64,000 bases of DNA from Nitrospira sp. (lineage in GTDB: Bacteria; Nitrospirota; Nitrospiria; Nitrospirales; Nitrospiraceae): positions 310,001 to 374,000 of the forward strand of contig JACOEM010000001.1 of NCBI GenBank assembly GCA_024998565.1, in the 5' to 3' direction. Position numbers and translations under genes: made by a program. This document shows, piece by piece, positions 28,985 through 44,893 of the stretch (position 1 is its first letter; every line of letters begins with the position of its first letter). Below the pieces are notes generated by a model that saw nothing but the letters and a program-made list of their open reading frames with translations, had not been told where the DNA came from and made no database searches.

Positions 28985-28987
28985 AGG

Positions 28988-29404: not shown

Positions 29405-29484
29405 GACAGCTGATTCCTTTCCTGCTCTTCTACGAAGGCACCTGACGGACGGATTCTTTCAGCGCTCTCCGTCGATCACCGGCG

Positions 29485-30084: not shown

Positions 30085-30147
30085 CCGACTCCCAGGTGAC
30101 CCCTGACCGGCATCCCGGCCGAACCTCTCCGTACCCAGGAACTCCGG

Positions 30148-30657
30148 TCAGGAGAATCGCCGCACCTGCTCGGCCAGCGTCCCGGCAACCAGGCTCAAAT
30201 CAAACGGCCAGGCATAACGCAACTCGACCCCGGGATACTGCGGTCGAAGATGCTCGAGGATTTCAGGAATCTCGACTTCCGAATGCGAACCGCCCGGCGT
30301 GAACATCGTCGTCGCCACCGTAATGTGAGTTGCTCCCTGCTTGACGAGTTGCTCGACCGACTCTTCCAGTGTGGGTGCGCAAAATTCGTTATAGGCCACG
30401 GCGAACAACACATCGCCCAGGTTGGCGCGCAATTGCGCCGCCACCGCTTCCAGCCCGGCCTGATACGGATCCGTCTCGGCGTTCCTCGGCCACTGGCGGA
30501 TTTTGGCATCCAATTCCAGTTCCTCGGCCGAAGCCGGTTGTTTCGCCGCGCGCCGCTGCCCCTCCAGCCGTTTCAATTTCGTCACCAAATCCTGCGGGCA
30601 TCCTCTTGGGATACCGCCATGCCCGACGAGAATCACACCCTGTCGCACTGTTGCCAT
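30148..30657 (-). CDS. cbiX: Sirohydrochlorin cobaltochelatase-like protein (CbiX/SirB family)
   Basis: A 169-residue protein from the ATG at 30657, which has a GAGGAGA site upstream. The N-terminal motif GVILVGHGGIPRG and the later FTPGGSHSEVEIPEIL correspond to the two histidine motifs of the CbiX/SirB chelatase fold. CbiX inserts cobalt into sirohydrochlorin on the way to cobalamin, while SirB inserts iron for sirohaem; sequence alone does not separate them. Its place in a gene array controlled by a B12-dependent regulator makes a cobalt or corrinoid role attractive, but that is inference. An internal insert (ELELDAKIRQWPRN) is unusual. Confidence 0.8.
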   Translation of the reverse strand: MATVRQGVILVGHGGIPRGCPQDLVTKLKRLEGQRRAAKQPASAEELELDAKIRQWPRNAETDPYQAGLEAVAAQLRANLGDVLFAVAYNEFCAPTLEESVEQLVKQGATHITVATTMFTPGGSHSEVEIPEILEHLRPQYPGVELRYAWPFDLSLVAGTLAEQVRRFS

Positions 30658-30696
30658 GTCATCTCTCCTCTGATTGAAATTCACACCTGGTTGCAC

Positions 30697-31065
30697 TCAC
30701 ATCGACATCGGGGACTCCAGATACTCCTGGAGATTGGTCTTGCCGTAGCGGCTTGCCGGGTACACCTTCCGGATGAGTCCGGCCACCAGCGCCATCGCCT
30801 TTTTGACGGCCGGCGTCTTCTCGGGATCGGTGGCGGGAAGAAGGCGGACGGTGATGGTCGTCTCGTGCCGTTTCAGCTGAATGAAAAAACTGCGCGCCGT
30901 ACCCTGCTCGATCACGACCGCATCCAGCAGCGCTTCTCGTCCGCTCTTCGCCAGGTAGCACTCCTGAACCTTGACAATCTCCCCCTCCGTCCGTTGCAAC
31001 ATCGGGGCGAAGGCCTGGTACACAGCCTGGAGTTCACCGGTCGATTCGATCACTACGTGCGGCAT
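30697..31065 (-). CDS. Conserved-looking protein of unknown function (122 residues)
   Basis: A soluble mixed alpha/beta protein beginning MPHVVIESTGEL, with no signal peptide or membrane segment. An AAGGAG-type site sits just before the ATG at 31065. It contains LLDAVVIEQGTARSFFIQLKRHETTITVRLLP, read by eye as paired strands, and a C-terminal helical segment ending ESPMSM. I do not recognise the family. It is 39 bases upstream of cbiX and directly downstream of the palindromic repeat at 31082. Confidence 0.7.
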   Translation of the reverse strand: MPHVVIESTGELQAVYQAFAPMLQRTEGEIVKVQECYLAKSGREALLDAVVIEQGTARSFFIQLKRHETTITVRLLPATDPEKTPAVKKAMALVAGLIRKVYPASRYGKTNLQEYLESPMSM

Positions 31066-31081
31066 CGTCGCTCCTTTCTAA

Positions 31082-31204
31082 CAGGATGCGCAAAAAGGCC
31101 GCCAGCGGCGTTCTCGCGGCGCTCAGGGGCTCACCGTACGGCCCGAGTACGTTTCGCCTCTTCGCTTGCTGCGGCCTTGCTGGACGGCCTTTTTGCGCAT
31201 CCTG
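31082..31204. repeat. 123-bp palindromic intergenic element with 20-bp terminal inverted repeats
   Basis: The ends are perfect 20-base inverted repeats (31082-31101 and 31185-31204, CAGGATGCGCAAAAAGGCCG), extendable with one bulge to GCTGG/CCAGC. The centre is also partly symmetrical (CGTAC...GTACG). It contains no ORF. It resembles a dispersed repeat I recall as common between genes in Nitrospira genomes. The A5/T5 runs next to GC-rich stems mean it could also act as a bidirectional terminator, splitting the long minus-strand array here. Confidence 0.8.
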
Positions 31205-31247
31205 CAGGTTCATGTATTGCGTACCCATCGAGTGTTTCCACAGCCTG

Positions 31248-32201
31248 TTACACATGATTGCGGAGCATCAACTCCTTCGGATGCGGATTCAGATACACCT
31301 GGTCGCGAATGTATTCGACATCGAAGAGCCGGACGTAGTGTTTGATCAATGTCAGCGGAACAATCAGCGGCGTGAGTCCCTGGTGGTAGTCCCCGATGAC
31401 CCCCAACAGCTCGGCCTTTTCCTGCCCATCCAGCCGTTCTTTGAAATGGCCCAGGATGTGCTGGAGCACATTCACATGTTTTCGCACCGTCGCCTTCGCC
31501 GCGAGGGCCTGCATAAACAGTTCGCCGTACCGGATGGCCAGGTCCTTCGGACGATACTCGTTCACCTGCGCAACCAATCGCCCGAGCTGACGATAGTGCG
31601 GGGCGCTATGTGCCAGGAGCAGATATTTGTGGATCGTATGAAACCGCACCAGCGCCTGCCTCGTGACGCCGCGCTGCATCAGATCCTGCCAACGACGGTA
31701 ACAGAACACCCGCTCGATGAAGTTTTCCCGCAGGAGCGGATCGCAGAGCCGCCCCTCCTCCTCCACCGGAATGAGCGGAAACCGATCGAGAAAGGCGCGC
31801 GCAAACAACCCCACACCCTTTCTGCCCGGCATGCCATGCTCGTTGTAGGTACGAACACGCTCCACCCCGCAACTCGGCGAGTCTTTCTTGAACACAAACC
31901 CGGACAGGTCCAGCTCCTCAAGATCACCCAGACGCTTCCCGGCCATCGTCTCCAACGCCAGCGTGTGGTCTCGCCCGCTCCTGATGGCGACCAGCCGAGG
32001 CTGTTGGGGATTGCCGATGAGTCGCATCGCTTCACGCGGGGTACCGAGCCCGGCTTCCACTTCCGGACAGACCGGCACCCACTCAACGTACCGACCCAGC
32101 ACTTCGGTCAGAAACACGTCCCGTTTGTGGCCTCCATCGAAACGGACCTCTTCCCCGAGCAAGCACCGGCTGATGCCCAGGCGAAGCGGGGGGGTCATCA
32201 T
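31248..32201 (-). CDS. DUF523 and DUF1722 fusion protein (YbgA-like)
   Basis: A 317-residue two-domain protein. The N-terminal DUF523 part (about 1-150) has the conserved cysteine motifs SRCLLGEEVRFDGGHK, VCPEVEAGLGTPREAM and FKKDSPSCGVERV. The C-terminal DUF1722 part (about 185-310) has LVRFHTIHKYLLLAHS and LGHFKERLDGQEKAEL. This fusion is typically adjacent to photolyase genes, as here, where the start overlaps the photolyase stop. Activity is not established; the cysteines suggest metal or Fe-S binding. Start is ATG at 32201 or the next codon, 32198. Confidence 0.88.
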   Translation of the reverse strand: MMTPPLRLGISRCLLGEEVRFDGGHKRDVFLTEVLGRYVEWVPVCPEVEAGLGTPREAMRLIGNPQQPRLVAIRSGRDHTLALETMAGKRLGDLEELDLSGFVFKKDSPSCGVERVRTYNEHGMPGRKGVGLFARAFLDRFPLIPVEEEGRLCDPLLRENFIERVFCYRRWQDLMQRGVTRQALVRFHTIHKYLLLAHSAPHYRQLGRLVAQVNEYRPKDLAIRYGELFMQALAAKATVRKHVNVLQHILGHFKERLDGQEKAELLGVIGDYHQGLTPLIVPLTLIKHYVRLFDVEYIRDQVYLNPHPKELMLRNHV

Positions 32202-33643
32202 GCCTTCACCTGCGCCTTTCCGAGATCCAGATATTCCTGGCGCGCTTGTCGATGGTCCACGATCGGCTCCGGATAATCCGACCCGATGCGGCATCCGGCC
32301 TGCACCTGTTCCAACGGCGGCATGAGATGCGGCTCATGAATCCATTTCGTCGGCACATGCTTGAGTTCCGGGACGTAGCGGCGAAGATATTCCCCCTCGG
32401 CGTCGAACTTTTCGCTTTGGATTCTCGGATTAAAGATCCTGTAGCCCTGCATGGCATCCGTCCCCGTCGAAGCGCACCATTGCCAGTTGCCGTTGTTGGC
32501 GGCCAGGTCTCCGTCGACGAGCCGTTCCATGAAATAACGCTCTCCGCTCTGCCAATCGATCCGGAGGTCCTTCACCAGAAACGAGGCGACCACCATCCGC
32601 ACGCGATTGTGCATCCATCCCGTCTGGTTCAATTGCCGCATGCCGGCATCCACAATCGGGTAGCCCGTGAGGCCCTGAGACCAGGCGGCAAACAACCGCT
32701 CGCGCTCAGGCCCCGCGGGTCTGGGCTCGGGAAGACCCGGTTTCGCTTTGAACGGCCCCTGCGCCACGTGGGGAAACGCCGTGAGGACTTGCTGAAAAAA
32801 TTCCCGCCAGACCAGTTCATCGATCCAGGTGAAGACATCCGCCCGCGAGACCGCACCGCCTTTGGCAAGCGCATTCAGCGCCGCATGCACCAACGTACGC
32901 GCGGAGACCGTTCCGAAGCGCAGATGGGGTGACAACTTCGAGGTGCCGTCGCTCGCCGGAAGATTTCTGCCGGTCACATACTGATGAACCGGCCCCCCCA
33001 AGAACCACTGCAGTCTGGTATGGGCCGCCTGTTCACCCGGCTCGATCCACATCGGCACCGACTCATATCCGAGATCCGTCACCGAAGGCCATTTCCGCGA
33101 ATCCGGAGTAGAGGCCTTGCCGGCCGACGGAAACGAAGGGATGCCCAGCAGAGGCGGAGCAGCAGCCCGCCATTTCGTCCACCAGCGGTCGCGATACGCG
33201 CTGTAGCGCTGAAACGGATCTCCGCTCAGCCCGCGCACTTCCTCCGCTTCGAACACGACATGGTCCTTGAATGTCCTGACCGTCCGGCCCTGCTGCGCCA
33301 ACCGCTGCTGAACCGTGCGATCCCGCTCCAGCGCCGCCGGTTCATAGTCCCGGTTCCAATACACGACATCGACCTTGAAGTCGGACGCCGCCTGCATGAC
33401 CGATTCAACCGGATCGCCCATCCGCCAGGCGAGGGACACGCCGTGCAGGGCCAGGGACCGGCGCAACTCCTCCAGACACCCCAGCATGAACCCGACGCAG
33501 GCTGAGCCGAACGCGTGCGAACGCAGCAGCGGTTCATCGAACACGAACAGCGGCACAATCTCCTGACATTCCTGACAGGCCGCCGACAGGGCGGGGTTGT
33601 CACGGAGCCGGAGATCTCGACGAAACCAGACCAGACCTTTCAT
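32198..33643 (-). CDS. phr: Deoxyribodipyrimidine photolyase (class I CPD-type)
   Basis: A 481-residue flavoprotein that uses light to split pyrimidine dimers in DNA. From the ATG at 33643 it opens with KGLVWFRRDLRLRDNPAL, the antenna-binding photolyase domain. The FAD-binding region includes FIDELVWREFF-type sequence (TWIDELVWREFFQQV), GYPIVDAGMRQLNQTGWMHNRVRM and NNGNWQWCASTGTDA. Length and motifs fit class I CPD photolyases. It overlaps neighbours by four bases on both sides. Placement in a gene array next to a LitR/CarH-like regulator fits the known light control of photolyase by such regulators. Confidence 0.95.
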   Translation of the reverse strand: MKGLVWFRRDLRLRDNPALSAACQECQEIVPLFVFDEPLLRSHAFGSACVGFMLGCLEELRRSLALHGVSLAWRMGDPVESVMQAASDFKVDVVYWNRDYEPAALERDRTVQQRLAQQGRTVRTFKDHVVFEAEEVRGLSGDPFQRYSAYRDRWWTKWRAAAPPLLGIPSFPSAGKASTPDSRKWPSVTDLGYESVPMWIEPGEQAAHTRLQWFLGGPVHQYVTGRNLPASDGTSKLSPHLRFGTVSARTLVHAALNALAKGGAVSRADVFTWIDELVWREFFQQVLTAFPHVAQGPFKAKPGLPEPRPAGPERERLFAAWSQGLTGYPIVDAGMRQLNQTGWMHNRVRMVVASFLVKDLRIDWQSGERYFMERLVDGDLAANNGNWQWCASTGTDAMQGYRIFNPRIQSEKFDAEGEYLRRYVPELKHVPTKWIHEPHLMPPLEQVQAGCRIGSDYPEPIVDHRQARQEYLDLGKAQVKA

Positions 33644-34071
33644 AAGGGAACCTCGGGAGAGGAGGAGGCCAGCCGCTGCGCCGGAGGGACAGGATCGGCG
33701 AACAGGATTCGCCGCCAGGCGACATAACAGAGAAACAAGGCCGTGGTGGCCATGAAGCCCGTGCGCAAGTGATGAAAGCCGAATTGAAACTGATTCATCA
33801 ATTCGCTGGTGAGGCCGAAGCCCCCATAGGCCATGGCCAACCCCCAGGCCCACGGACGCAGAAACAGAAACCCGTAGCCGATCAGAAAATGCACGGCCGG
33901 CGAATGCAGCTTGACCATGTAGGCCAGCGGACCGGTGATCGTGACGCCGAACAGTTTGAGCCCATAGGCGGGGAAAAATTCGATGATCAGCACATCGATC
34001 AATCCCACCAGCAAAAAGAGCGCCCCGAAGAGTTTGATGTCGATGCCCCGTGAAGTCGTGTGCCCGGTCAT
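33640..34071 (-). CDS. Integral membrane protein of unknown function
   Basis: A 143-residue protein with about four transmembrane helices from the ATG at 34071, which has an AAGGAG site upstream. Helices are visible around LFGALFLLVGLIDVLIIEFF, FLIGYGFLFLRPWAWGLAM and the FMATTALFLCYVAW segment. The family is not recognised. It is coupled to photolyase by an ATGA overlap, so it likely belongs to the same stress or light response. Confidence 0.72.
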   Translation of the reverse strand: MTGHTTSRGIDIKLFGALFLLVGLIDVLIIEFFPAYGLKLFGVTITGPLAYMVKLHSPAVHFLIGYGFLFLRPWAWGLAMAYGGFGLTSELMNQFQFGFHHLRTGFMATTALFLCYVAWRRILFADPVPPAQRLASSSPEVPL

Positions 34072-34119
34072 GTTTTCACGCTCCTTCCCTGCGGACGGAC
34101 TCCGTGGGTCCGTGCTCAT

Positions 34120-34644
34120 TCATCGAACCCAGGAATCCGGAAACGCCCGCCACCATTCGGTGGGATGTGTGTGCCGCCACTGCGCCTGCTCCTGCCAGAG
34201 ACGGTCGGCCGTGACCCTGTTCAACCGGACCGCCATCGCGGCGCTGACATCGGATTGCTGGCGCACGCTGGTTTGAATCATTTCCTTCGCCATGCGAGCC
34301 AGGCCGCCCGGTGGATCGACGAGATCCTCCGTGTGCCGATAGGCGAGGTTCAGATACAACTGTTCCACGGCCGTCCAACTCTCATCCTTGGACAGCTGTT
34401 CGAGGTAGGCGTCGATCGCCTGATAGACATAGGTGAGCTGAAGGTAGGCTTCTGCCGACGGCCGATCCTGAATGGCCTGCTCACAAGCCTCCAGCGCCCG
34501 GCGATAGTCGCCTGCCATGAGGAATAACCCCGCTCTCTCGATGCCGGAGGCCCGTGAGACAGGCATCACCTGTCCATGCCCCTCGACGGGAAACGGTCCG
34601 GCCACGATGATCGACAAGCCAAGCGCCGCAAGCATCCGTTTCAC
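34120..34644 (-). CDS. Exported TPR-like helical protein
   Basis: A 174-residue protein from a GTG at 34644, which has an AGGTGG site just upstream; an in-frame ATG three codons later is the alternative. An N-terminal hydrophobic signal (LAALGLSIIVAG) is followed by a helical region containing one TPR-like unit (AGLFLMAGDYRRALEACEQAIQDRPSAEAY). It is seven bases downstream of the PDZ protein gene. No specific function can be assigned; periplasmic scaffolding is possible. Confidence 0.65.
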   Translation of the reverse strand: MKRMLAALGLSIIVAGPFPVEGHGQVMPVSRASGIERAGLFLMAGDYRRALEACEQAIQDRPSAEAYLQLTYVYQAIDAYLEQLSKDESWTAVEQLYLNLAYRHTEDLVDPPGGLARMAKEMIQTSVRQQSDVSAAMAVRLNRVTADRLWQEQAQWRHTHPTEWWRAFPDSWVR

Positions 34645-34651
34645 ATGCCAC

Positions 34652-35134
34652 CTATCGGCCCGAGCCGCCGTGTGATCCCATTTGTCCTTTGTACAGAGTC
34701 TGGCCCGAGACACGAGTCACGGAGACCTCGCGCGGACCGCCCTCGCTTTTCACCCCCAACTTCACCACCGACCCGGGCTCGCCCCGAACGAGGAGGGCCA
34801 CTTGCTCGTAGGTCTTCCCGGTCACGGCCACACCGTCTACGGTCGTCAGCTCATCCCCCTGCTTGAGTCCGGCTTTCTCCGCCGGTCCATCAGGCAGCAC
34901 CTGCGCCACATAGAGCACCGCCGTCTCACCCACACGCTCCGCCCCCACGTGCAGCGACACTCCGATCACGCCATCCGGAATCGCCGCTTCCAAACTGAAT
35001 GTGGGTGCCGGCGCCCCTGCCTTGTCATGTCCATCGCTCGCCAGAGCTGTGCCGGTTGCGGCAGGCGAGTGGCTCAGGCAGACGCTCAAGAATCCTACGA
35101 CCAAGTAGACGGAGGTATTGTTCTGCTTTTTCAT
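34652..35134 (-). CDS. Exported single-PDZ-domain protein
   Basis: A 160-residue protein with an N-terminal signal peptide and one PDZ domain (about residues 65-145). The PDZ features are VIGVSLHVGAER, AQVLPDGPAEKAGLKQGDELTTVDGVAV and the closing strand VVKLGVKSEGG. There is no protease or other catalytic domain. It starts at the ATG at 35134 with a GGGAG site. Its start overlaps the neighbouring DUF4149-like gene's end region closely (22 bases), which implies one transcript. Confidence 0.8.
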   Translation of the reverse strand: MKKQNNTSVYLVVGFLSVCLSHSPAATGTALASDGHDKAGAPAPTFSLEAAIPDGVIGVSLHVGAERVGETAVLYVAQVLPDGPAEKAGLKQGDELTTVDGVAVTGKTYEQVALLVRGEPGSVVKLGVKSEGGPREVSVTRVSGQTLYKGQMGSHGGSGR

Positions 35135-35156
35135 CGTCCATCTCCCTTCGTGACAA

Positions 35157-35639
35157 TCAGAATTGACGCGCAACGCCTACCAAACACAAGCCTGCCAGCA
35201 ACACCAGCGAGTTCAGATATAAAGACCGTTGATGCAATCGATCCCAGGCCTGCTTCAACGTCGCATCAACGACCCCGTGCTGTTCCTGTTCTTTCAGTCG
35301 ATCTCGCATCGCATTGCTCTGCGGAGTGAGAGGCGACCGGCAATAGGATTCGGCCGCGAGAATCACCAGCCAGATGCCGCCTGCGATCAGCACCGGCAAA
35401 TTCCACCCACGTGTGCTCCCGAGCACGGTGACCGACAACAGCCCGGCCGCAGCGGCTCCCATGCCCAGCACATAGTAGGCAGGAAAAAGCCGGCGGACGA
35501 CTTTCCCAAACGCTTCCTGGTCCAGGTTCTTGGCCAGAATCGGCGCCACCACAAACGAGAGCAGCACGACCTTGCCGACCAAGACCGCGACAGCCAGGGC
35601 CTGCAGGTACTGCATCACCGGGTCGAGGAAGGCAGACAT
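35157..35639 (-). CDS. DUF4149-like membrane protein
   Basis: A 160-residue protein with four hydrophobic segments (ALAVAVLVGKVVLLSFVVAP, LGMGAAAAGLLSVTVL, VLIAGGIWLVILAAE, SLYLNSLVLLAGLCLVGVA). This layout, with an EAFGKVVRRLFPAYY stretch after the first helix, matches what I know as DUF4149. Its start lies inside the end of the epimerase gene (25-base overlap). The function is unknown. Confidence 0.75.
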   Translation of the reverse strand: MSAFLDPVMQYLQALAVAVLVGKVVLLSFVVAPILAKNLDQEAFGKVVRRLFPAYYVLGMGAAAAGLLSVTVLGSTRGWNLPVLIAGGIWLVILAAESYCRSPLTPQSNAMRDRLKEQEQHGVVDATLKQAWDRLHQRSLYLNSLVLLAGLCLVGVARQF

Positions 35640-36553
35640 GCCTGATCCTCCTTGTTCACGATCGCCCGCAAGGCCCGCTCCAACGTCGGATAACGGAAGG
35701 TATATCCCCCGGCTCTCGCCTTCGCCGGATCGACACGTTGCCCGGTGGTCATCAACGTCCCTACCTCACCCAACGCCAGATGCAACGCGAAGCCGGGAAC
35801 CGGAAGCCACGAGGGACGATGGAGCACCTTGCCGACCGTGGCACAGAACGTCTTCATCGTGACCGCCTCAGGCGCCACTGCGTTCACAGGGCCGGAGACG
35901 GTCGGCGTGGCGATGGCCCATTGAATCAGGCTCAAGAGATCCGCCCGGTGAATCCATGACACCCATTGCGTGCCCGGCAACACCGGCCCTCCGACAAAGA
36001 GCTGAAACGGCAATAACATCTTCGGCAACGCGCCACCGCCCTGTTCGAGCACCATCCCGGTTCTCAATAGTACGACACGCGTCCCGAGCCGACCGGCACG
36101 CAAGGCCTCCGCTTCCCAGGCGGCAGACAGCTCGGCCAGAAAACCCTGACCGAGCGGCGACGCCTCATCCAGAAGCCGATCGTCGCTCGGGCCGTAGTAA
36201 CCGATCCCCGATGCGCTGATCAACAGAGGAAGGGGCGCAGACCGGCCGGCCGATGCGTCCACCAGCAGTCTGGTCGACAGGACCCGGCTCTCCACCAGGA
36301 GCCGCTTGCGGGCATCAGTCCATCGCCCGTCGGCGATCGGCGCACCGGCCAGATTGATGACGACATCTGCCGTCGCCACTTCAGCGTGCCAGGGTCCGTC
36401 AGAACGAGCGTCCCATTCCACGAACCGGACCGACGACTGGGACGCATGACCGGACCGGCGGCTCAAGACCACCACCTCATGACCCTGTCGGGCCAGCTCT
36501 TCGACCAACGCATGGCCGATGAATCCCGTTCCTCCGGCGACGATGATCTTCAT
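35615..36553 (-). CDS. TIGR01777-family NAD(P)-dependent epimerase (SDR39U1/YfcH type)
   Basis: A 312-residue atypical SDR from the ATG at 36553. It begins MKIIVAGGTGFIGHALVEEL (cofactor-binding GGTGFIG), contains VVINLAGAPIADGRWTDARK and LLISASGIGYYG, and ends with the DUF1731-type C-terminal segment (PVNAVAPEAVTMKTFCATVGKVLHRPSWLPVPGF, then RAGGYTFRYPTLERAL). Family members are often annotated as cell-division inhibitors, but evidence for that is poor. It belongs to the same minus-strand array as the photolyase. Confidence 0.92.
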   Translation of the reverse strand: MKIIVAGGTGFIGHALVEELARQGHEVVVLSRRSGHASQSSVRFVEWDARSDGPWHAEVATADVVINLAGAPIADGRWTDARKRLLVESRVLSTRLLVDASAGRSAPLPLLISASGIGYYGPSDDRLLDEASPLGQGFLAELSAAWEAEALRAGRLGTRVVLLRTGMVLEQGGGALPKMLLPFQLFVGGPVLPGTQWVSWIHRADLLSLIQWAIATPTVSGPVNAVAPEAVTMKTFCATVGKVLHRPSWLPVPGFALHLALGEVGTLMTTGQRVDPAKARAGGYTFRYPTLERALRAIVNKEDQACLPSSTR

Positions 36554-36585
36554 CTGTCTGTCCTCCCGTCGGGCACAGTCCACGG

Positions 36586-36945
36586 CTACAATGCCCCGTC
36601 CTGGTCGGCCTCATCGGCCGACTCCTCGTCACTCTCGTCCGGTGCTCGATCGTCCGATGACTGTTTCACAGGCCTGCTGTCGGAAACGGCCGTCACGCGC
36701 TGGCTGAACTTTCTCTGCTTTGTGCCATACAGCAGGTTCGGCGGCGGGCTCCGGCGATTCTTCAGGATGACCGGGTCGAGCACCTCGCCGCACATCGTGC
36801 AATGCCATGCCGTAATATCGATCTGACCGGTATCATCGAGCAAATCGATGTAGTGCTGTGTCAACAACAATCCTCCGCAGCGCGGACAGATGTGATGCCC
36901 GGGCTGCGGAGTGGAGAGAGATTCTGGTGTCCCATGTGTTTCCAT
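36586..36945 (-). CDS. Zinc-ribbon protein with acidic tail
   Basis: A 119-residue protein with two CxxC knuckles, CPRCGGLLLTQHYIDLLDD and HCTMCGEVLDPVILKNR, which should bind one zinc ion. The C-terminal part is hydrophilic and strongly acidic (Asp/Glu/Ser-rich, near SDDRAPDESDEESADE). It is related to the zinc-ribbon protein at 40747-41043: spacing and the DPVI-NR ending are shared. Start is the ATG at 36945; the frame is open upstream but without family-like residues. Such small proteins may act as adaptors for transcription or as structural proteins; nothing more specific can be said. Confidence 0.72.
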   Translation of the reverse strand: METHGTPESLSTPQPGHHICPRCGGLLLTQHYIDLLDDTGQIDITAWHCTMCGEVLDPVILKNRRSPPPNLLYGTKQRKFSQRVTAVSDSRPVKQSSDDRAPDESDEESADEADQDGAL

Positions 36946-37036
36946 TGGAACCCCCGACTGGGAAAAAAATGGACGACCACGAACTGAACCGGGCCCACTG
37001 CATGCGACTGCTCCCGTTCCGGCGCCCACCCATGCC

Positions 37037-37168
37037 CTATCGCACCCGTGACCTTGCCGGCCGAGCCGACCGCACCACCGCATAGGCAGCTCGCCGCTGC
37101 CTGGCGAACAGGGCCGTCCCGATGCTCATCACTATTGCCGCGATACCATATGCGAACATCTGCGTCAT
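37037..37168 (-). CDS. Small membrane protein (43 residues)
   Basis: A short ORF from the ATG at 37168 to a TAG, with an ideal AGGAGG site six bases before the start. It encodes one hydrophobic segment (MFAYGIAAIVMSIGTALFA) followed by a strongly basic tail (many Arg), the layout of a single-pass protein with a cytoplasmic positive end. It fills most of the gap between the FGE-fold gene at 37357 and the zinc-ribbon gene. No family is recognised. Support is the ribosome binding site, the helix and the operon position. Confidence 0.6.
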   Translation of the reverse strand: MTQMFAYGIAAIVMSIGTALFARQRRAAYAVVRSARPARSRVR

Positions 37169-37356
37169 GAATGCCTCCTGATCGTGGCGCCTGGGGGCGC
37201 CGTACATTCTGCTGGTTATCCGATGGTTCGCTGAGGGGACGGATTCCTCCGAAGGAAGAACCCGCCCTCCTCAACGGGAGGCCGCGTGCGGAGTCGCGGT
37301 ACCTCCTGACAGTCACTGCTTCGGACCGGCCTCGCTTCCTCACGCCTGCACATGGC

Positions 37357-38187
37357 TCATTTCGCTGTCTCTCCACCCCGGACACACCGGAATCCGGTGC
37401 CATGCGTCTGCAGCGCGAATCCTCCTCGTCCCCGTGCCGTGGCGGTAATATCCGACTGGGGACTGTGCCACGACCCTCCACGAATCACCCGGACGATCCC
37501 CTTGTCGGGGCCTTGCGGGTTCCTATCTGGAGCATTCGCGTAATAGTCGGGGGCGTACCAATCCTGCACCCATTCCCGTGCGTTGCCGGACATATCCTTG
37601 ATGCCGTATGGAGAATCCCCTCCGGACAGCGAACCGACGGCATACAATGTCTTGTCGTCGACCCACTCCCGGTCGAAGTTCGCCCGGGTCGGACTCGGGG
37701 TTTCGTTCCCCCACGGGAACATCCGGCCATCGGTGCCGCGTGCGGCCTTCTCCCACTCCGCTTCGGTGGGCAGCCGCTTCTTGGCCCACGCGCAATAGGC
37801 TTTGGCGTCGTACCACGTCACCTGCACAACCGGCAGCTGCTCGATCCCTTTGGCCGAGACCAAGACCCCGGTGCCATAGGGATTCGGCGGGCTGCGATGA
37901 CCGGTGGCGGCGACAAACGCCATGTAGCGCTCATTGGTCACTTCCACCTGATCGATGGCGAACGTATCGACATGAACCGACCGTTGCGGCCACTCGTCGG
38001 CCCGCCCCTTGGGATTCTCACTGCCCATCAAAAACGGTCCGCCCGGCACGGTGACCATCGGAACCGGATCCAGCTCCTTGAGAGTCGGCGCCGCGAGCAC
38101 AGGTGTCAGGGCGACCGCACAGGTTGCCGTCACGAACAGGCTCATGCATCTCCACCTGGTTCTTCTCCTGGTCAAACCTTGAGTCAT
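37357..38187 (-). CDS. Exported sulfatase-modifying-factor (FGE-fold) protein, copy 1
   Basis: A 276-residue protein with a signal peptide (SLFVTATCAVALTPVLA) and one FGE-sulfatase domain. Domain marks are MVTVPGGPFLMGSENPKG, RLPTEAEWEKAARG, MFPWGNE, MSGNAREWVQDWY, RVIRGGSWHSP and a final GFRCVR. True formylglycine-generating enzymes carry a catalytic Cys pair in the R-C-R-type segment before the end; here that region reads DITATARGRGGFALQTHG with no Cys, so it is unlikely to oxidise sulfatase cysteines. It overlaps the SmbP-like gene by ATGA. Probable role: periplasmic binding or structural protein, unknown. Confidence 0.82.
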   Translation of the reverse strand: MTQGLTRRRTRWRCMSLFVTATCAVALTPVLAAPTLKELDPVPMVTVPGGPFLMGSENPKGRADEWPQRSVHVDTFAIDQVEVTNERYMAFVAATGHRSPPNPYGTGVLVSAKGIEQLPVVQVTWYDAKAYCAWAKKRLPTEAEWEKAARGTDGRMFPWGNETPSPTRANFDREWVDDKTLYAVGSLSGGDSPYGIKDMSGNAREWVQDWYAPDYYANAPDRNPQGPDKGIVRVIRGGSWHSPQSDITATARGRGGFALQTHGTGFRCVRGGETAK

Positions 38188-38552
38188 TTCTTCTGCTCCT
38201 TGCTCCCCGCGATTGCCTGGGCCGTATGAATCTTGATCTCACCGACAAGCCGTTCCACCTTACCCGTGTCTCCCCGGTCGGCCGCCTCCTGCGCCTGTGT
38301 CACAAGGGTTCTGGCTTCATGCAGATGATGTTCGATCTGCGCCTGCAGATCAGGCGATGCCACGGTGCCCCCCAGGGCCGCGCGGTGATACACCTCCCAC
38401 GCGTGATCCACGCTGTGTTCCGCCTCATGCACCATCTGGAGTTTTTCCGGATGGGGGTGGCGGCTGGCATCGATCGGACCGGCTTGGAGATCCGCCGTCA
38501 TCAAGAGCGCGCTGAATCCGCCGACCAGTGTGATCATCGTGCTGTACGTCAT
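38184..38552 (-). CDS. Periplasmic helical His-rich protein, SmbP-like
   Basis: A 122-residue protein with a signal peptide ending near LQAG. The mature part is almost entirely helical and rich in His and Glu (HPHPEKLQMVHEAEHSVDHAW, IEHHLHEARTLVTQAQEAADRG). This resembles the small metal-binding protein SmbP of Nitrosomonas europaea in layout and composition, so copper, nickel or cobalt binding is plausible. It lies between two FGE-fold genes and overlaps one by ATGA. Homology to SmbP is my impression only; the alternative is a generic helical-bundle periplasmic protein. Confidence 0.68.
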   Translation of the reverse strand: MTYSTMITLVGGFSALLMTADLQAGPIDASRHPHPEKLQMVHEAEHSVDHAWEVYHRAALGGTVASPDLQAQIEHHLHEARTLVTQAQEAADRGDTGKVERLVGEIKIHTAQAIAGSKEQKK

Positions 38553-38604
38553 GCCTCTGCCTCCGTCGGGTGAATGGCGGGCCGGCCCCTCCCGCCCTGT
38601 GCAC

Positions 38605-39663
38605 TCATCGCTGCTTCATCGACTGTTCGATGAGAGGTCGCAGCTCCAACAATTCAATGTTCGCCGGATCCATGGCCAAACCCCGGCTGACTGCCTGCTG
38701 GGCCTCGCTGAAGCGTTCCCGCCCCATTTCCACCAGCGCGGTGATGTAGCTGTCCCTGATGCGCTGCTCCCAGTCAGCCGGAGCCGCTTTGGCGCACCGG
38801 AAACCGAGGCCGACGCCGTAACTGTTATTGAGCGGATGATTCCAGAACCGGTGCGTCGAGCGAATCGTGCCTTCCGGTGCGATCCACGAGCCGCCGCGGA
38901 TGACGCGCTTCTCGCCGACGGTCAAGCGGTCTACGTAGGTTCCCGTTCCACCGATCCACAAGGGTTTTTCCGGACCGGTGGGGTTCACCATGGTTTCGAG
39001 TCGCCCGTAGTATTTCGGGTCATACCAGTCGCCGACCCATTCGAAGACATTGCCCGCCATGTTGTACACGCCGTAGTAGCTGGCGCCCTCCGGATGAGAA
39101 TCCACCGGCAAGGTCGCATCATGATGCCTGTCATAATTGGCCTTGTTGGAATCGAAGTCGTTGCCCCAGGGATAGAGGTTGCCGTGCGGGCCGCGGGCCG
39201 CCTTTTCCCATTCGGCTTCGGTGGGCAACCGCTTCCCGCGATACTCGCAGTAGGTTTTGGCGTCGATCCAGTTGACGCCCACCACCGGCTGCTGAGGCTT
39301 ATTCAAGCGCGGATCGTCCCAGTAGGCCGGCGCCGGATGACCGGTCGCCTTGATGAAGGCGCCATAGTCCTTGTTCGACACCTCGTACTTGTCGATCAGA
39401 TAGGAATCCAGGAACACCATATGCGCCGGCCCCTCATCGTTGAACGCTTCGGCAGACAAAGGCGTCTTCATTCGTTTGTCGTACAGCGTCAGCCGGCGAC
39501 CGGAATCCGCCGGTGGAGCCTTGTCTAATCCCATGATCGACGGTCCTTGTCCCACGTAGACCATATCCGCGGGAATGATGGAATCCTCCGCCTGCGCCGT
39601 CGCGGCCATGACGGCGACGGTCATGATCAGTCCTGCCCTGACTACGTTCCCCATTGTCTTCAT
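38605..39663 (-). CDS. Exported FGE-fold protein with C-terminal helical (TPR-like) extension, copy 2
   Basis: A 352-residue protein from the ATG at 39663 with a GGAGG site and a signal peptide. The FGE-sulfatase domain has HMVFLDSYLIDKYEVSNKDYG, RLPTEAEWEKAARG, NLYPWGNDF, MAGNVFEWVGDWYDP, RVIRGGSWIAP and GLGFRCAK. The segment that carries the catalytic Cys pair in true formylglycine-generating enzymes reads RSTHRFWNHPLNNSYGVG and lacks it. About 45 C-terminal residues form a helical TPR-like tail (EMGRERFSEAQQAVSRGLAMDP). It is close to copy 3 in sequence, so the two are probably tandem duplicates. Confidence 0.83.
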   Translation of the reverse strand: MKTMGNVVRAGLIMTVAVMAATAQAEDSIIPADMVYVGQGPSIMGLDKAPPADSGRRLTLYDKRMKTPLSAEAFNDEGPAHMVFLDSYLIDKYEVSNKDYGAFIKATGHPAPAYWDDPRLNKPQQPVVGVNWIDAKTYCEYRGKRLPTEAEWEKAARGPHGNLYPWGNDFDSNKANYDRHHDATLPVDSHPEGASYYGVYNMAGNVFEWVGDWYDPKYYGRLETMVNPTGPEKPLWIGGTGTYVDRLTVGEKRVIRGGSWIAPEGTIRSTHRFWNHPLNNSYGVGLGFRCAKAAPADWEQRIRDSYITALVEMGRERFSEAQQAVSRGLAMDPANIELLELRPLIEQSMKQR

Positions 39664-39726
39664 GCTATACCTCCTGCGCTGAGGGCCGGGTCGGGGACGG
39701 TCAGCCGCCCCCTCCACGGCTACGTG

Positions 39727-40689
39727 CTACTTCTTCATGCTCTTCTTGATGAGATCGCGAGTGGCCAGATACTCTTTGTTGTCGGGATCCGCCGCCAGAG
39801 CCTTCTCGATAGAGGCGAGGGCGTCGGCATTCTTCTCCGCTCCCATGCCTACAAGCGCCTGAATGAAGGCATCCCGCCCGGCTTGAGCGGCCTCGTCGGA
39901 CGCCACGCTGGCCGACTTCGCGCAACGGAAACCCAGCCCGACGCCGTAGGAGTTATTCTCGGGCTGATTCCAGAACCGGTGGCTGGTGTGCAGCGAGGTT
40001 TCCGGAGCCAGCCAGGACCCGCCACGCAACACCTTCACCGGCCCTTGATTCGCGAAGTTGTAGCCCTTCTCGGCGCCACGGGGATTCAACGCATTGCTGG
40101 TGCGGTAATATTTCGGATCGTACCAGTCGTCCACCCACTCGAAGACATTGCCCGCCATGTTGTACACACCATACCCGCTCACCCCTTCAGGATAGGAGTC
40201 CACCGGCGTGGTGCGTCCCACATTCTGTCCATAGTTGGCCTTCTTCGGATCGAGGTGATGTCCCCACGGGTAGTGGTTGTCTCCCTCCGGACCCTTGGCA
40301 GCCTTTTCCCATTCCGCCTCGGTGGGCAACCGCTTGCCGTCCCACTTGCAAAAGGCGTTGGCGTCCGTCCAACTCACTCCGACGACCGGTTGCTCGGGCT
40401 TGCTGAGCCGCGGATCGTCCCAGTAGGCCGGCGCCGGATGACCGGTCGCCCGCATGAACTCCTTGTACCGCGCGTTTGACGTCTCGAACTTGTCGATCAG
40501 GTACGCATCCAGCACCACCTGGTGCCTCACCTCATCGGAATGTTCGTTGCTGCCCATGGTGAACTCGCCGCTGGGGATGAGGACCATGTCTTTATGGTCG
40601 CCGGCTGCCTTCGCCGACACGGCCATCGACATGGATCCAGCCACGAGCATCGCTCCTATTCCAATTTGTAGACCTGTGTGCCTCCGCAT
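39727..40689 (-). CDS. Exported FGE-fold protein with TPR-like tail, copy 3
   Basis: A 320-residue protein with a signal peptide ending near VSAKA and a GGAGG site before the ATG at 40689. FGE domain motifs are MVLIPSGEFTMGSNEHSDEV, RLPTEAEWEKAAKG, HYPWGHHLD, MAGNVFEWVDDWYDP, KVLRGGSWLAP and GLGFRCAK. The region HTSHRFWNQPENNSYGVG replaces the catalytic-Cys segment. The C-terminal tail (ASIEKALAADPDNKEYLATRD) looks like one TPR unit. It shares long near-identical stretches with copy 2 (for example TGHPAPAYWDDPRL). It is the second gene after the divergent promoter. Confidence 0.84.
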   Translation of the reverse strand: MRRHTGLQIGIGAMLVAGSMSMAVSAKAAGDHKDMVLIPSGEFTMGSNEHSDEVRHQVVLDAYLIDKFETSNARYKEFMRATGHPAPAYWDDPRLSKPEQPVVGVSWTDANAFCKWDGKRLPTEAEWEKAAKGPEGDNHYPWGHHLDPKKANYGQNVGRTTPVDSYPEGVSGYGVYNMAGNVFEWVDDWYDPKYYRTSNALNPRGAEKGYNFANQGPVKVLRGGSWLAPETSLHTSHRFWNQPENNSYGVGLGFRCAKSASVASDEAAQAGRDAFIQALVGMGAEKNADALASIEKALAADPDNKEYLATRDLIKKSMKK

Positions 40690-40746: not shown

Positions 40747-41043
40747 CTAAACAGAGACCTGGCCCTGGAGGACCGGCTTCGACGTACTCATCTCCCGCAC
40801 TGCGCCGGCAGCCTGCTGCAGGTACCGGTTCCACCGAATGACCGGATCGACGACATCCCCGCATTGCACACAACGCGAAGTGGTGCTATCGAGCCCGCTG
40901 GCTCCGTTCAACAGGTCCGTGCAGAAATCACGAACCATTAGTCCGCCGCATCGCAGGCAGCTCGACTCCTGCTGAACAGTCAGGATCTGTCTCCGGATGT
41001 CACTCAGTCCCACAGTTCCTTCCATTGTCTTTGTGGTCGCCAT
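40747..41043 (-). CDS. Zinc-ribbon protein, first gene of the minus-strand array
   Basis: A 98-residue protein from the ATG at 41043, with GAGGAG seven bases upstream. Two CxxC knuckles (CLRCGGLMVRDFCTDLLN and RCVQCGDVVDPVIRWNR) form a probable zinc ribbon. It is paralogous to the gene at 36586-36945. Being the promoter-proximal gene opposite the B12-type regulator, it could be a regulatory accessory, but nothing in the sequence proves this. The leading residues are polar and the C-terminal tail is short. Confidence 0.75.
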   Translation of the reverse strand: MATTKTMEGTVGLSDIRRQILTVQQESSCLRCGGLMVRDFCTDLLNGASGLDSTTSRCVQCGDVVDPVIRWNRYLQQAAGAVREMSTSKPVLQGQVSV

Positions 41044-41063: not shown

Positions 41064-41157
41064 TGTCCAATGTTTGCAACCTCTATGTCCAATGTTTAAC
41101 CTCTTTTGTCCAATGTGTCAATAGTTATTTTAATAAATATTTGACAAACATTGGACA
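41064..41157. promoter_or_regulatory. Four-copy operator in the divergent regulator/array promoter region
   Basis: TGTCCAATGT occurs at 41064-41073, 41086-41095 and 41107-41116, and its exact inverse ACATTGGACA at 41148-41157. Spacings are 22, 21 and 41 bases, close to whole multiples of two helical turns, so all copies face one side of the DNA. Copies lie in the spacer of both divergent promoters. This is what a multimeric MerR/CarH-type repressor operator would look like; the binding protein is inferred to be the product of the gene at 41181. Confidence 0.75.
41093..41121 (-). promoter_or_regulatory. Promoter of the minus-strand array
   Basis: Read on the minus strand, TTGACA (41121-41116) and TAAACA (41098-41093) are separated by 17 bases, giving a start point near 41086. 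A copy of the 10-base ACATTGGACA sequence lies in the spacer and another overlaps the -10 box. The minus-strand gene begins at 41043. Confidence 0.65.
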
Positions 41158-41169
41158 CAACCATATACT
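41141..41169 (+). promoter_or_regulatory. Promoter of the CarH/LitR-like regulator gene
   Basis: TTGACA at 41141-41146 and TATACT at 41164-41169 are 17 bases apart, nearly the consensus. The operator copy ACATTGGACA fills the spacer. Transcription should start near 41176, only about five bases before the ATG at 41181, so the message would be almost leaderless. Confidence 0.7.
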
Positions 41170-41180
41170 TGGGATCAACA

Positions 41181-42098
41181 ATGAATACGCACAGAATTCA
41201 TAGGGTTGCGAAGCTCACCGGTCTGAGTCGCGATGTGATTCGAGTGTGGGAGCGCCGATTTGGCCTGCTGAAACCGACACGAGGCGCGAATCGCTATCGC
41301 AATTATTCGGATGAAGATGTGGCCTTGCTGCGCTATCTGAAGCAGCAATTGGATGCGGGAGCTTCAATCGGTGATCTCGCCAGGCTGGGGCGTGAGGAGT
41401 TGATTGCCCTCTTGCGCGCGGAAGCGCCGCGCACCGCCGCGGTGGACAATACGTTCGACCGACTCTTGCGGGAACTGCTCTCGGCCTTGGAACCATTCGA
41501 CCGCGTCACATTCGAGAAACGCTTGAACGGCGCGGTCGCAGTCGTCCCGTTTGAAGAGGCACTCCACGGAATTCTGCTCCCGCTGCAGGAACGCGTCGGA
41601 GACCTGTGGCACAGCGGGCGCATCAGTATCGCCCTCGAACATTACGTGACCAGCCAAATTGAACAAAAACTGTATGCGGCCATGAATCAATTGCCGGTGG
41701 CGGAATTCGGCGCGAAAGTCGTCGTGGCCTGCCCGCCCGGTGAGGAGCACGACATTGCGGCATTGGCAGTCGCCTACCGTTGCCGCGTGCGTGGATGCCG
41801 GGTCTACTACTTAGGAGCCAACGTGCCGATCTCCTCCCTCGGCAGGCTCTGCAGGGAGGTCGCCCCGGATCTGGCCATCCTGTCGTTGACCCTGGTGCTG
41901 CAGGAAGGAAACGCCGCGGAATTGATTCACTCGCTCGCAGAGGAATTGAAACCCGTTACCACGGTCATGGCCGGCGGCCATGGCGCGCGCGTGATGCGCG
42001 ATCAGTTTGCGCAATACGGCATCGATGTCCTGGATACCTTCAGCGAGTTGGACGAAGTGCTGGATCGATTCACCCGGCGATTTACGATCCCGGGATGA
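41181..42098 (+). CDS. carH: MerR-family regulator with B12-binding domain (CarH/LitR-type photoreceptor)
   Basis: A 305-residue regulator. Residues 1-70 are a MerR winged helix (RVAKLTGLSRDVIRVWERRFGLLKPTR). A four-helix B12 cap follows (about 90-170) with W143 and E153-H154, i.e. the W-x9-EH motif that contacts the upper face of adenosylcobalamin in CarH. A Rossmann B12-binding domain (about 175-300) has E188-E189-H190, matching the ExH lower-ligand histidine. In the known family, AdoCbl drives tetramer assembly and repression in the dark; light breaks the Co-C bond and releases DNA. Start is the ATG at 41181; an upstream TTG at 41151 lies inside the promoter. It is divergent from the 23-gene array, which includes photolyase and cfa, typical targets. 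Confidence 0.9.
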   Translation: MNTHRIHRVAKLTGLSRDVIRVWERRFGLLKPTRGANRYRNYSDEDVALLRYLKQQLDAGASIGDLARLGREELIALLRAEAPRTAAVDNTFDRLLRELLSALEPFDRVTFEKRLNGAVAVVPFEEALHGILLPLQERVGDLWHSGRISIALEHYVTSQIEQKLYAAMNQLPVAEFGAKVVVACPPGEEHDIAALAVAYRCRVRGCRVYYLGANVPISSLGRLCREVAPDLAILSLTLVLQEGNAAELIHSLAEELKPVTTVMAGGHGARVMRDQFAQYGIDVLDTFSELDEVLDRFTRRFTIPG

Positions 42099-42116: not shown

Positions 42117-42533
42117 ATGGCTCTCTATCCACTCACCGTGTTCTACGACGGAGCCTGTCCCATTTGCGCCCGAGAAATGGCGCTGATGAAGCGTCTGGAT
42201 AGGACGCAACGCCTCACCCTGCTCGACTTCTCTCTTGCCGACTTCAATGCCGCACCGGCCGGCCTGGCTGTCACGGATCTGAGCACAGTGATCCACGCCC
42301 AGTGGGCGGACGGCACCGTCATCACGGGCGTCGAGGTCTTCCGTGCGATTTGGGAGGCGATCGGTCTGAGATTCCTGTCTCGCCTCAGTCGGCTCCCGTT
42401 GGTTGCCCCACTCATGGTGACGGCCTACGGGTGGTTTGCCAGAAACCGGCTTTGGCTCACGGGCCGCAGCAATGCCTGTCCTCGAAATGCCTGCGCCGCA
42501 GCTTCCCCCGCGTCATTGCGAGCCCCGCAATAA
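42117..42533 (+). CDS. DCC-family (DUF393) thiol-disulfide oxidoreductase-like protein
   Basis: A 138-residue protein with the family signature FYDGACPICAREM near residue 10, giving a thioredoxin-like CxxC. Later segments (FRAIWEAIGLRFLSRL, YGWFARNRLWL) also fit DUF393. It begins 18 bases after the regulator gene and is probably on the same transcript. DCC proteins occur in LitR/photolyase neighbourhoods in other bacteria (recollection), but their activity is untested. The last 25 residues are Ala/Pro-rich with two further cysteines. Confidence 0.85.
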   Translation: MALYPLTVFYDGACPICAREMALMKRLDRTQRLTLLDFSLADFNAAPAGLAVTDLSTVIHAQWADGTVITGVEVFRAIWEAIGLRFLSRLSRLPLVAPLMVTAYGWFARNRLWLTGRSNACPRNACAAASPASLRAPQ

Positions 42534-42949
42534 TCCGCCTCCTCTCGTTTCCCGCACCCCGATCATGACGGAGCACAACGGAGCCACGAGGCCCGGATCA
42601 AGCCTTCGTTCCTAGACCGTACACGTTCATCTATCTCGACAGACCTTGAGAGGGAGCACGGCGCAACGAGCGGTTCGTCGAGTCAGTCCCAGTCGGTCGA
42701 ACCTCACCTCGCGCGAAGGAAAAGTCTGACAGCGGCGCCCTACACATCCATCCGAACCTCACCCAACAGCACTAACCATCACGAACCGCCATGCCTGGGT
42801 AATTGCCTAGTGTCTACCTGAGAGCTCCCTTGCTGACAATTTCCAAGGAGATGCTACTGTTATGCAGAACGTCGTCCTGGTGCGAGACAGCGTCACCAGA
42901 ATCATCGAGGACAGAACCGCCGCTTCACGTCACATTCATCCGTTTCAGC
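42534..42949. other. Intergenic stretch, nothing assigned
   Basis: About 416 bases between the DCC gene and the FliL-like gene. Short open frames here lack binding sites or recognisable residues. I see no strong terminator, promoter or repeat. Confidence 0.5.
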
Positions 42950-43411
42950 ATGACATTACGCGTCAGCCTCATCGTGCTGTTCAGCATCGCCGCCATCCTG
43001 CTCCTGGTAGGCTATTTGGCGAGCCAGTACCATCCGGACCTCCTGCCGCATACGTTCTCGTTGCAAACCGCTCCTCCCGATCCCTCACAGGGGCAGCCAG
43101 GTGTGACCATCAACCTGCCGCCCGTCGTCGCGCCCGTGGATGACGGCCAACGCTACTATTACGTCCAAGTCAATTTGGCCTTGGAGCTTGATCGCTCGGG
43201 GACCGCCGGATTGATCCAGGCCCGCCACGACGCGATCGATCGGCAGGTGATGGAAATTCTTCACACCTATGCCGTCAGCGATCTCCGTGCGTCCGGGCAG
43301 CGACCGGCCTTGCGAGCAGACATTCGACGCGGCATCAACAAATTGCTTCCCAAAGGACAGGTCCAGAATGTCTACATTACCAACTGGTTGATAACCCCCG
43401 TCGGGTACTGA
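42950..43411 (+). CDS. FliL-like single-pass membrane protein
   Basis: A 153-residue protein from the ATG at 42950: one N-terminal transmembrane helix (SLIVLFSIAAILLLVGYLA) and a periplasmic domain with the FliL pattern (YYYVQVNLALELD, DAIDRQVMEILHTYAVSDLR, LRADIRRGINKLLPKGQVQNVYITNWLI). FliL supports the flagellar stator. No other flagellar gene is in this window, so it may be an orphan or a FliL-domain protein with another partner. The frame is open upstream to 42803, but those residues do not look coding. Confidence 0.75.
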   Translation: MTLRVSLIVLFSIAAILLLVGYLASQYHPDLLPHTFSLQTAPPDPSQGQPGVTINLPPVVAPVDDGQRYYYVQVNLALELDRSGTAGLIQARHDAIDRQVMEILHTYAVSDLRASGQRPALRADIRRGINKLLPKGQVQNVYITNWLITPVGY

Positions 43412-43510
43412 CCCGCTTCCGCAAGAACTACGCTTGCCGACAGATCGACCTTCACACTCTGGTGCTGCTGAAAGACTGAGACAGCCAGTCCGGATGAAAC
43501 CCGGCGTGCG

Positions 43511-44893
43511 TTAGACGAAGCGGACCGGCTGGTGCCGTGATTGGATGGTCATGCGGATGCCGTGTTTCGGGCGCAGGGTCACCATGATCTCGGGCTCGAC
43601 GTGTTCCTGCGCAAGCTGTAGATCGTAGCAGCGTCCGATCAGCGCCAGGAGCAGCGGCCCTTCCACCGTCGCGAAGTGCGTCCCCACGCAGGCCCGGGGG
43701 CCTGCGCCGAACGGCAGGTAGGCGCATCGGGGAGCCGGTCGTTCGCCCTCCAGCCAGCGCTCCGGCGTGAAACGCTCCGGATCGCGCCAGAAGGTCGGGT
43801 GCCGGTGCAAGTGATAGATGCCCACCAGGACAAGCGCTCCGGCAGGCAGGGTGAGGCCGCCGATGCTTGTGCGGCTGGCAGCCTTTCGCTGGACCGCCGG
43901 AACGGGGGGATATAAACGAACCGCTTCATCGAAAACCGCGCGCGTGTACGGGAGTTGTTGAAGATCGTCGGCCTGAGGCGTTCGACCCTGCAGCACCCGG
44001 TCCACCTCCTGGTGAAAACGCGCCTTTACCTCCGGATGGGTGGCCAGCAGGTACCAGGTCCAAGCGAGGGCATTGGCGGTGGTCTCGTGTCCGGCAGCAA
44101 AGATGGTCAGCGCTTCATCCCGCAGTTCCTGATCGCTCAACCCGGCACCCGTGTCCTCATCGCGGGCCCTGAGGAGCAGATCCAGGAGATCGTCGTGCAG
44201 CGCTCCAGTGCGGCGGCGCTCGGCGATCAATCCATAGATGAGCTTGTCCATGAACTGCAGCGCGAGACGAAATTCACGGTTGCGCGGGGTCGGCACCCAC
44301 AGGGGCAGGCGCAGGGGACTGTGAAACGAATCGAACGCATACTTCAGACTGACCCTGAGCGCATGACTGATCTGGTCGGTATGGTCGGCCACGTTTGTGT
44401 GAAACATCGTGTGAGAGATCACTTCGAGGGCCAATCGCATCATTTCGTCGGCGATATCGACCGTCCGCCCCACGTGGACGGTCCAACCTGCGATCCGCTG
44501 CTCGCCCACCTGCGCCATACGCTCGGCCATCGCCGCCATGCGGGCGCGATGAAAAACCGGTTGGATGATGCGCCGGTGCCGCTTCCAGACGTCGCCCGAA
44601 CTGGTCACCAAGCCGTTACCTAAGACCAACGCAAGGCCGGTGGGACGCTGCGGCTCGTAGACTTTCACGAAACGATCGGCCTGATGGACGAGAATCTCCT
44701 CCGCGAGATCGGGATGGCTGAGGAGGTAGAGCGTCTTGGGGCCGAGACGAAAGCGTAGCGCATCGCCATGCCGTCGCCACCACTGCGACATGGCCTCCAG
44801 CGGTTGCCGCCTGAACGCACGCAGGTGGCCCAGCAGAGGCTCACTGCCGGGAACATCGACCAACGTATGAGATGGTTTCACATCGACAGGCAT
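43511..44893 (-). CDS. Cytochrome P450
   Basis: A 460-residue haem monooxygenase. The I-helix oxygen-activation motif is AGHETTANALAW, the ExxR motif is FDEAVRLYPP, and the haem ligand loop is FGAGPRACVGTHFA. The length, with no membrane anchor, fits soluble bacterial P450s of the CYP102/CYP4-like groups. The substrate is unknown; fatty acids or hydrophobic compounds are typical for this branch. It is monocistronic: no redox partner gene is adjacent, and a weak binding site precedes the ATG at 44893. Confidence 0.94.
   Translation of the reverse strand: MPVDVKPSHTLVDVPGSEPLLGHLRAFRRQPLEAMSQWWRRHGDALRFRLGPKTLYLLSHPDLAEEILVHQADRFVKVYEPQRPTGLALVLGNGLVTSSGDVWKRHRRIIQPVFHRARMAAMAERMAQVGEQRIAGWTVHVGRTVDIADEMMRLALEVISHTMFHTNVADHTDQISHALRVSLKYAFDSFHSPLRLPLWVPTPRNREFRLALQFMDKLIYGLIAERRRTGALHDDLLDLLLRARDEDTGAGLSDQELRDEALTIFAAGHETTANALAWTWYLLATHPEVKARFHQEVDRVLQGRTPQADDLQQLPYTRAVFDEAVRLYPPVPAVQRKAASRTSIGGLTLPAGALVLVGIYHLHRHPTFWRDPERFTPERWLEGERPAPRCAYLPFGAGPRACVGTHFATVEGPLLLALIGRCYDLQLAQEHVEPEIMVTLRPKHGIRMTIQSRHQPVRFV

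Follow-up and report, generated by a model that had tools for sequence, protein, structure and literature searches.

The window analysed here, a stretch of 64,000 nucleotides of DNA from a nitrite-oxidising Nitrospira, holds a gene for a CarH-like regulator and, facing away from it, an array of genes for FGE-sulfatase-domain proteins followed by a photolyase. The intergenic region between the two divergent genes is AT-rich (35% GC) and carries four sites with the sequence ACATTGGACA. The features of the locus are as follows.

24872-36954, minus strand: co-directional downstream genes, from the second Zn ribbon to a CMAS methyltransferase (Pfam, ORFs, synteny)
32198-33643, minus strand: photolyase (Pfam)
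36586-36954, minus strand: second Zn-ribbon-like protein, small, four-cysteine
37357-39660, minus strand: FGE protein 2, a small 122-aa protein and FGE protein 3 (Pfam, synteny)
39727-40689, minus strand: FGE-sulfatase-domain protein 1 (Pfam PF03781)
40747-41043, minus strand: first divergent gene, small Zn-ribbon-like protein with four Cys, 98 aa (ORF)
41064-41073, minus strand: operator site 1, exact ACATTGGACA, at about +13 to +22 of the array promoter; kept in loci with 22/21/41 spacing
41086-41095, minus strand: operator site 2, exact ACATTGGACA, overlapping the -10/start region of the array promoter
41093-41121, minus strand: predicted sigma-70 promoter of the array, TTGACA-N17-TAAACA (sequence and conservation)
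41107-41116, minus strand: operator site 3, exact ACATTGGACA, conserved, within the -35/-10 spacer of the array promoter
41137-41147, plus strand: 11-bp CarH-type repeat with the regulator -35 inside it (ATATTTGACAa), forming a tandem with site 4
41141-41169, plus strand: sigma-70 promoter of the regulator, TTGACA-N17-TATACT, 11/12 consensus match
41148-41157, plus strand: operator site 4, exact ACATTGGACA, conserved, within the -35/-10 spacer of the regulator promoter
41181-42095, plus strand: CarH-like regulator, 305 aa, MerR + B12-binding_2 + B12-binding (Pfam, PDB sequence match, AF2 fold match)

The first divergent gene product (40747-41043) gave no Pfam match; two four-cysteine Zn-ribbon-like proteins flank the FGE array. 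Among the loci with enough sequence, a homologue of this first Zn ribbon was divergent from carH in 56 of 67 and an FGE gene in 63 of 67, and the photolyase was found on the same strand as the array in 36 of the 48 loci with 9.3 kb upstream. The downstream set around the photolyase comprised a DUF1731 epimerase, a DUF4149 protein and a PDZ-like protein in its upstream part and, after the photolyase, DUF523/DUF1722-like, SnoaL, SDR, FAD amine oxidase, DUF1365 and CMAS methyltransferase genes (the PDZ and DUF523/DUF1722 labels were assigned by eye). FGE3 and the second Zn ribbon lie 402 bp apart (36955-37356); a weak terminator-like hairpin was seen in this gap at 37278-37261, and the array may be transcribed as two units split there. 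With respect to FGE-sulfatase paralogues, three lie in the array at 37357-40689 and each of the eight relatives searched gave 10-16 FGE matches. A literature search, thin on subscription journals, returned no papers on the FGE array. Downstream of carH, the interval 42117-44893 encodes two proteins: on the strand of carH a DCC1-like thiol oxidoreductase, which is conserved among close relatives, and on the other strand a cytochrome P450. At loci L066, L068, L086, L100 and L116, two or three CarH-like genes follow one another, interspersed with FGE genes, which suggests tandem duplication of a regulator-target unit.

The regulator matched MerR_1 in Pfam (2.4e-15) and its best PDB sequence match was TtCarH/LitR (E 1e-28). 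The fold predicted for it by AF2 (pLDDT 86.6) had 5c8f, 5c8e and 5c8d, all Thermus CarH, as top matches. The whole-chain rmsd between this model and the CarH structures was high; because the cobalamin domain alone fitted at ~3 A, this is probably an effect of domain placement. Residues were compared in an alignment of 26 Nitrospirota sequences. The recognition helix, R-x-WERR(Y) in the family, reads RVWERRF here, with R21, W23, E24 and R26 invariant. CarH is defined by the motifs Wx9EH, WH and E-x-H (PMC9304148). W143, E153 and H154 of Wx9EH, which contacts the Ado group, were invariant, as were E188 and H190 of the lower-ligand E-x-H, and H144, following the Trp, was nearly invariant. The longer motif E/D-x-H-x2-G/P...SxT/V...GG was present with one substitution: S235, G265 and G266 were also invariant, and the G/P position was Ala193 in this genus and Gly in several relatives. 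Two cobalamin adenosyltransferase families, PF02572 (BtuR/CobA type) and PF01923, are encoded in the genome, which makes a supply of AdoCbl to the regulator plausible; the two genes lie ~1 kb apart at G000:C2:597793-599768.

Mapping by eye of the residues that form the tetramer interface of CarHTt showed one member of the Gly pair to be kept (G205) and the other to be Val173 beside Pro172, while the Arg-Asp pair corresponded to Glu189/Asn214. Because the interface appears from this mapping to be only partly kept, the oligomeric state predicted for the regulator is uncertain. These differences from CarHTt, together with the replacement of the B12-motif Gly by Ala193, would suit a CarH-like protein that binds the sites and answers AdoCbl supply or redox state, or that is independent of B12 as CarA is. 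We nevertheless consider this unlikely, since the His after the Trp is nearly invariant and the array includes a photolyase, as would be expected for a light response. Moreover, CarA is without the Trp of Wx9EH (PMC9304148), whereas W143 is invariant in the 26-sequence alignment, which speaks against an identity as this B12-independent paralogue.

The first-pass annotation had described four copies of ACATTGGACA, three direct and one inverted, on one face of the DNA. All four proved to be exact and in the described positions and orientations, with start-to-start distances of 22, 21 and 41 bp. At 10.5 bp per turn these correspond to 2.1, 2.0 and 3.9 turns, and since they are near whole turns the description of a single face is good to about 35 degrees. 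Conservation was assessed using 80 loci from a scan of named genomes, nearly all Nitrospira, with N. defluvii (L045) and N. moscoviensis (L087) among them, and a further search that covered 60 genomes related to that of the window. Four sites in this layout, to within 1-2 bp, were present in 76 of 89 Nitrospirota upstream regions and the exact 22/21/41 spacing in 47 of them; these 89 regions are not all from distinct species, and some genomes were in both sets. Sites carried 1.63 bits per column compared with 0.90 outside (39 non-redundant loci), and in the alignment of upstream regions site 2 followed the near-invariant consensus ACATTAGACA. Loci laid out otherwise had 28 gaps, of which 20 came to a multiple of 10.5 give or take 1 bp; the p-value of 1e-7 for this is too strong because the loci share ancestry and their independence is overstated. 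Departures from the four-site layout mostly preserve helical phase. An AT-rich intergenic region is the one feature that would favour repeats arising by chance. Against this, four copies of ACATTGGACA in ~100 bp have a Poisson probability of ~1.7e-11, no 10-mer occurred four times in any of 20,000 Markov simulations of the region, and the sites are kept across dozens of species; conservation already rules out a chance origin, to which we attach a negligible probability.

The array promoter lies on the minus strand, with TTGACA at 41121-41116 and TAAACA at 41098-41093; this weak -10 of the window is TATACA in most relatives. In the regulator promoter one base parts TTGACA from site 4 (TTGACA-a-ACATTGGACA), and in the array promoter TTGACA and site 3 share one base (TTGACACATTGGACA). 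The earlier statement that TTGACA is directly followed by the site in each promoter is thus accurate to within one base, but has to be amended to a one-base gap on the regulator side and a one-base overlap on the array side. That the sites occupy both sigma-70 promoters was borne out, with sites 3 and 4 in the spacers and site 2 over the array -10/start. From their positions, sites 1-4 are most naturally read as keeping RNA polymerase off both promoters by steric exclusion. MerR activators work on promoters with a spacer of 19-20 bp, and a regulator with a MerR-family DNA-binding domain might instead twist an over-long spacer and so switch these promoters on. Both spacers are 17 bp, however, which is optimal for sigma-70 and disfavours such activation, and the sites are direct repeats rather than a single dyad within the spacer. 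Spacer-twisting activation of the classical MerR type was rejected on these grounds as highly improbable.

CarH repeats are 11 bp in length with the core TnnACA (PMC9304148), and the form nAnnTnnACAn has been given for them (PMC8156234). ACATTGGACA is without the A at position 2 of nAnnTnnACAn and fits nnnnTnnACA, plus four further fixed bases. On the regulator side, 96% of the 51 non-redundant loci had a TnnACA core exactly 11 bp ahead of site 4; because any TTGACA is a match to TnnACA, all the information in this -35 repeat comes from its constant distance of 11 bp. The array side had full cores at -22, 0 and +21 relative to site 2, not in 11-bp tandem, with a degenerate core at the -11 position (0.58 of core positions matched versus a background of 0.31). 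Among the relatives, L063, L066, L087 and L090 have a full repeat at this position. The 11-bp TnnACA repeats of CarH operators, which overlap the -35 or -10, are seen on the regulator side as a tandem with the -35 in one repeat, and on the array side as cores 22/21 bp apart over the spacer and -10. A head-to-tail CarHTt dimer contacts the non-contiguous DR1 and DR3 (PMC9304148), which in 11-bp repeats are 22 bp apart, the distance between array-side sites. As one dimer touches both repeats, the 22-bp spacing may have a structural reason. The first-pass annotation had seen in this layout what a tetrameric CarH-type repressor would need to shut both directions. A CarH-type repressor on these sites is supported by the regulator motifs, the TnnACA core, the cover of the promoters and an order-wide conservation that keeps helical phase. 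The tetramer is a prediction only: intact repeats on the array side stand 22/21 bp apart, a degenerate one lies between the first two, and the layout is not simply the known need of a Thermus-type tetramer.

The genome was also searched by patterns for further members of a regulon, for which the first-pass annotation had looked to the 10-mer. Exact copies of ACATTGGACA numbered 12 in 4.13 Mb, and clustered copies were found only in the carH intergenic region, which holds four; each of the remaining eight was isolated and inside an ORF. Over the whole genome, the paired motif was found at this locus only and no triple 11-bp TnnACA array was found. The promoter-type pattern TTGACANACATTRGACA, with up to 3 mismatches, gave 18 matches versus 16 for the reversed control, with nothing convincing beyond the locus.

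Genomes without an intact CarH were also found. G007, G015, G017 and G030 had neither an intact CarH nor a close FGE1 orthologue; absence of the regulator tends to go with absence of the array. In G015 the match to a CarH orthologue was confined to roughly its last 60 codons (G015:C27:83460-83654) and had an in-frame TGA; this remnant is probably a decaying carH. In G034 a profile search for CarH found nothing; this genome keeps the photolyase/FGE array, sites 1, 2 and 4 are gone, and TTGACACATTGGACA is exact upstream. The single kept word is fused to the -35 box at L147 (G034:C12), 5614-5628. This pattern fits CarH loss with decay of most sites, although carH may be missing from the assembly rather than from the genome. 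Because G034 keeps TTGACACATTGGACA without a detectable CarH, the -35-linked copy may have another role, and may serve the promoter itself or another regulator. That the word, at least beside TTGACA, is a promoter part or another regulator's site and not a CarH operator is nonetheless very unlikely. Sites 1 and 2 lie outside a -35 context, the regulator promoter has an inverted copy, the core agrees with that of CarH repeats, and it was sites 1, 2 and 4 that were lost in G034. In addition, the absence of the paired motif elsewhere in the genome argues against a general promoter element.

Compared with known systems, Thermus thermophilus CarH (PDB 5C8D/5C8E) has the same domain order, Wx9EH, WH and lower-ligand His as the Nitrospira regulator, at ~30% identity, although the latter is without the Arg-Asp interface pair. 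The Thermus operator has the same TnnACA repeats with the -35 inside one 11-bp repeat, as on the Nitrospira regulator side. In contrast, the Nitrospira array-side repeats are 22/21 bp apart, one operator is common to two divergent promoters, and the predicted target is the photolyase/FGE array rather than carotenoid genes. The P_crt operator of Myxococcus xanthus (DR1-dr2-DR3-DR4-dr5; PMC9304148) shows the same alternation of intact and degenerate repeats with the -35 in a repeat, but keeps an 11-bp register at one promoter, whereas Nitrospira shows an inverted pair and a word extended to 10 bp, ACATTRGACA. In Sorangiineae and Nannocystineae, the divergent CarH operators (PMC9304148) differ in having carotenoid targets and tandem 11-bp repeats. 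In Vibrio cholerae, photolyase and CFA synthase genes are among those induced by blue light, with a MerR-like regulator involved (PMC5241685), but the regulators and operon layout are other than in Nitrospira and no FGE array was seen there. The putative Nitrospira target set resembles these light-induced genes. The 22-bp spacing and the non-carotenoid target are new relative to known CarH operators.

Taken together, the sequence evidence makes it likely that the adjacent regulator has its operator in the four repeats and is an autoregulated, AdoCbl-dependent CarH-type repressor, released by light, of both carH and the array. In the dark, AdoCbl-loaded CarH oligomers on sites 1-3 would lie over the array promoter from its spacer through the -10 to the start region, and oligomers would also occupy site 4 and the 11-bp repeat holding the regulator's own -35. 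With sites 1-4 covered in this way, RNA polymerase would have access to neither promoter. Light (green, blue or UV) would break the Co-C bond and dissociate the CarH oligomer, and the photolyase/FGE array and carH would then both be transcribed until newly made CarH carrying fresh AdoCbl restored repression.

Photoinhibition of nitrifiers is well documented, and has been noted for ammonia oxidation (PMC9239080). The same literature search found no papers on CarH in nitrite oxidisers or nitrifiers and no description of how nitrite oxidisers sense light, an absence that is weak given its thin coverage of subscription journals. We put at roughly even odds the wider proposal of a Nitrospirota CarH lineage with a two-turn operator, in which head-to-tail dimers on ACATTRGACA words 21-22 bp apart close two divergent promoters from a single compact region. 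Light would here control an FGE-like array and a photolyase, which would form a photoprotection regulon, so far unrecognised, of comammox bacteria and the main nitrite oxidisers. If true, Nitrospira would possess a dedicated B12 light switch for which a set of targets is predicted, photoprotection in nitrifiers would become directly testable, the FGE array would gain functions to look for, and the design of CarH operators would be widened to two-turn spacing.
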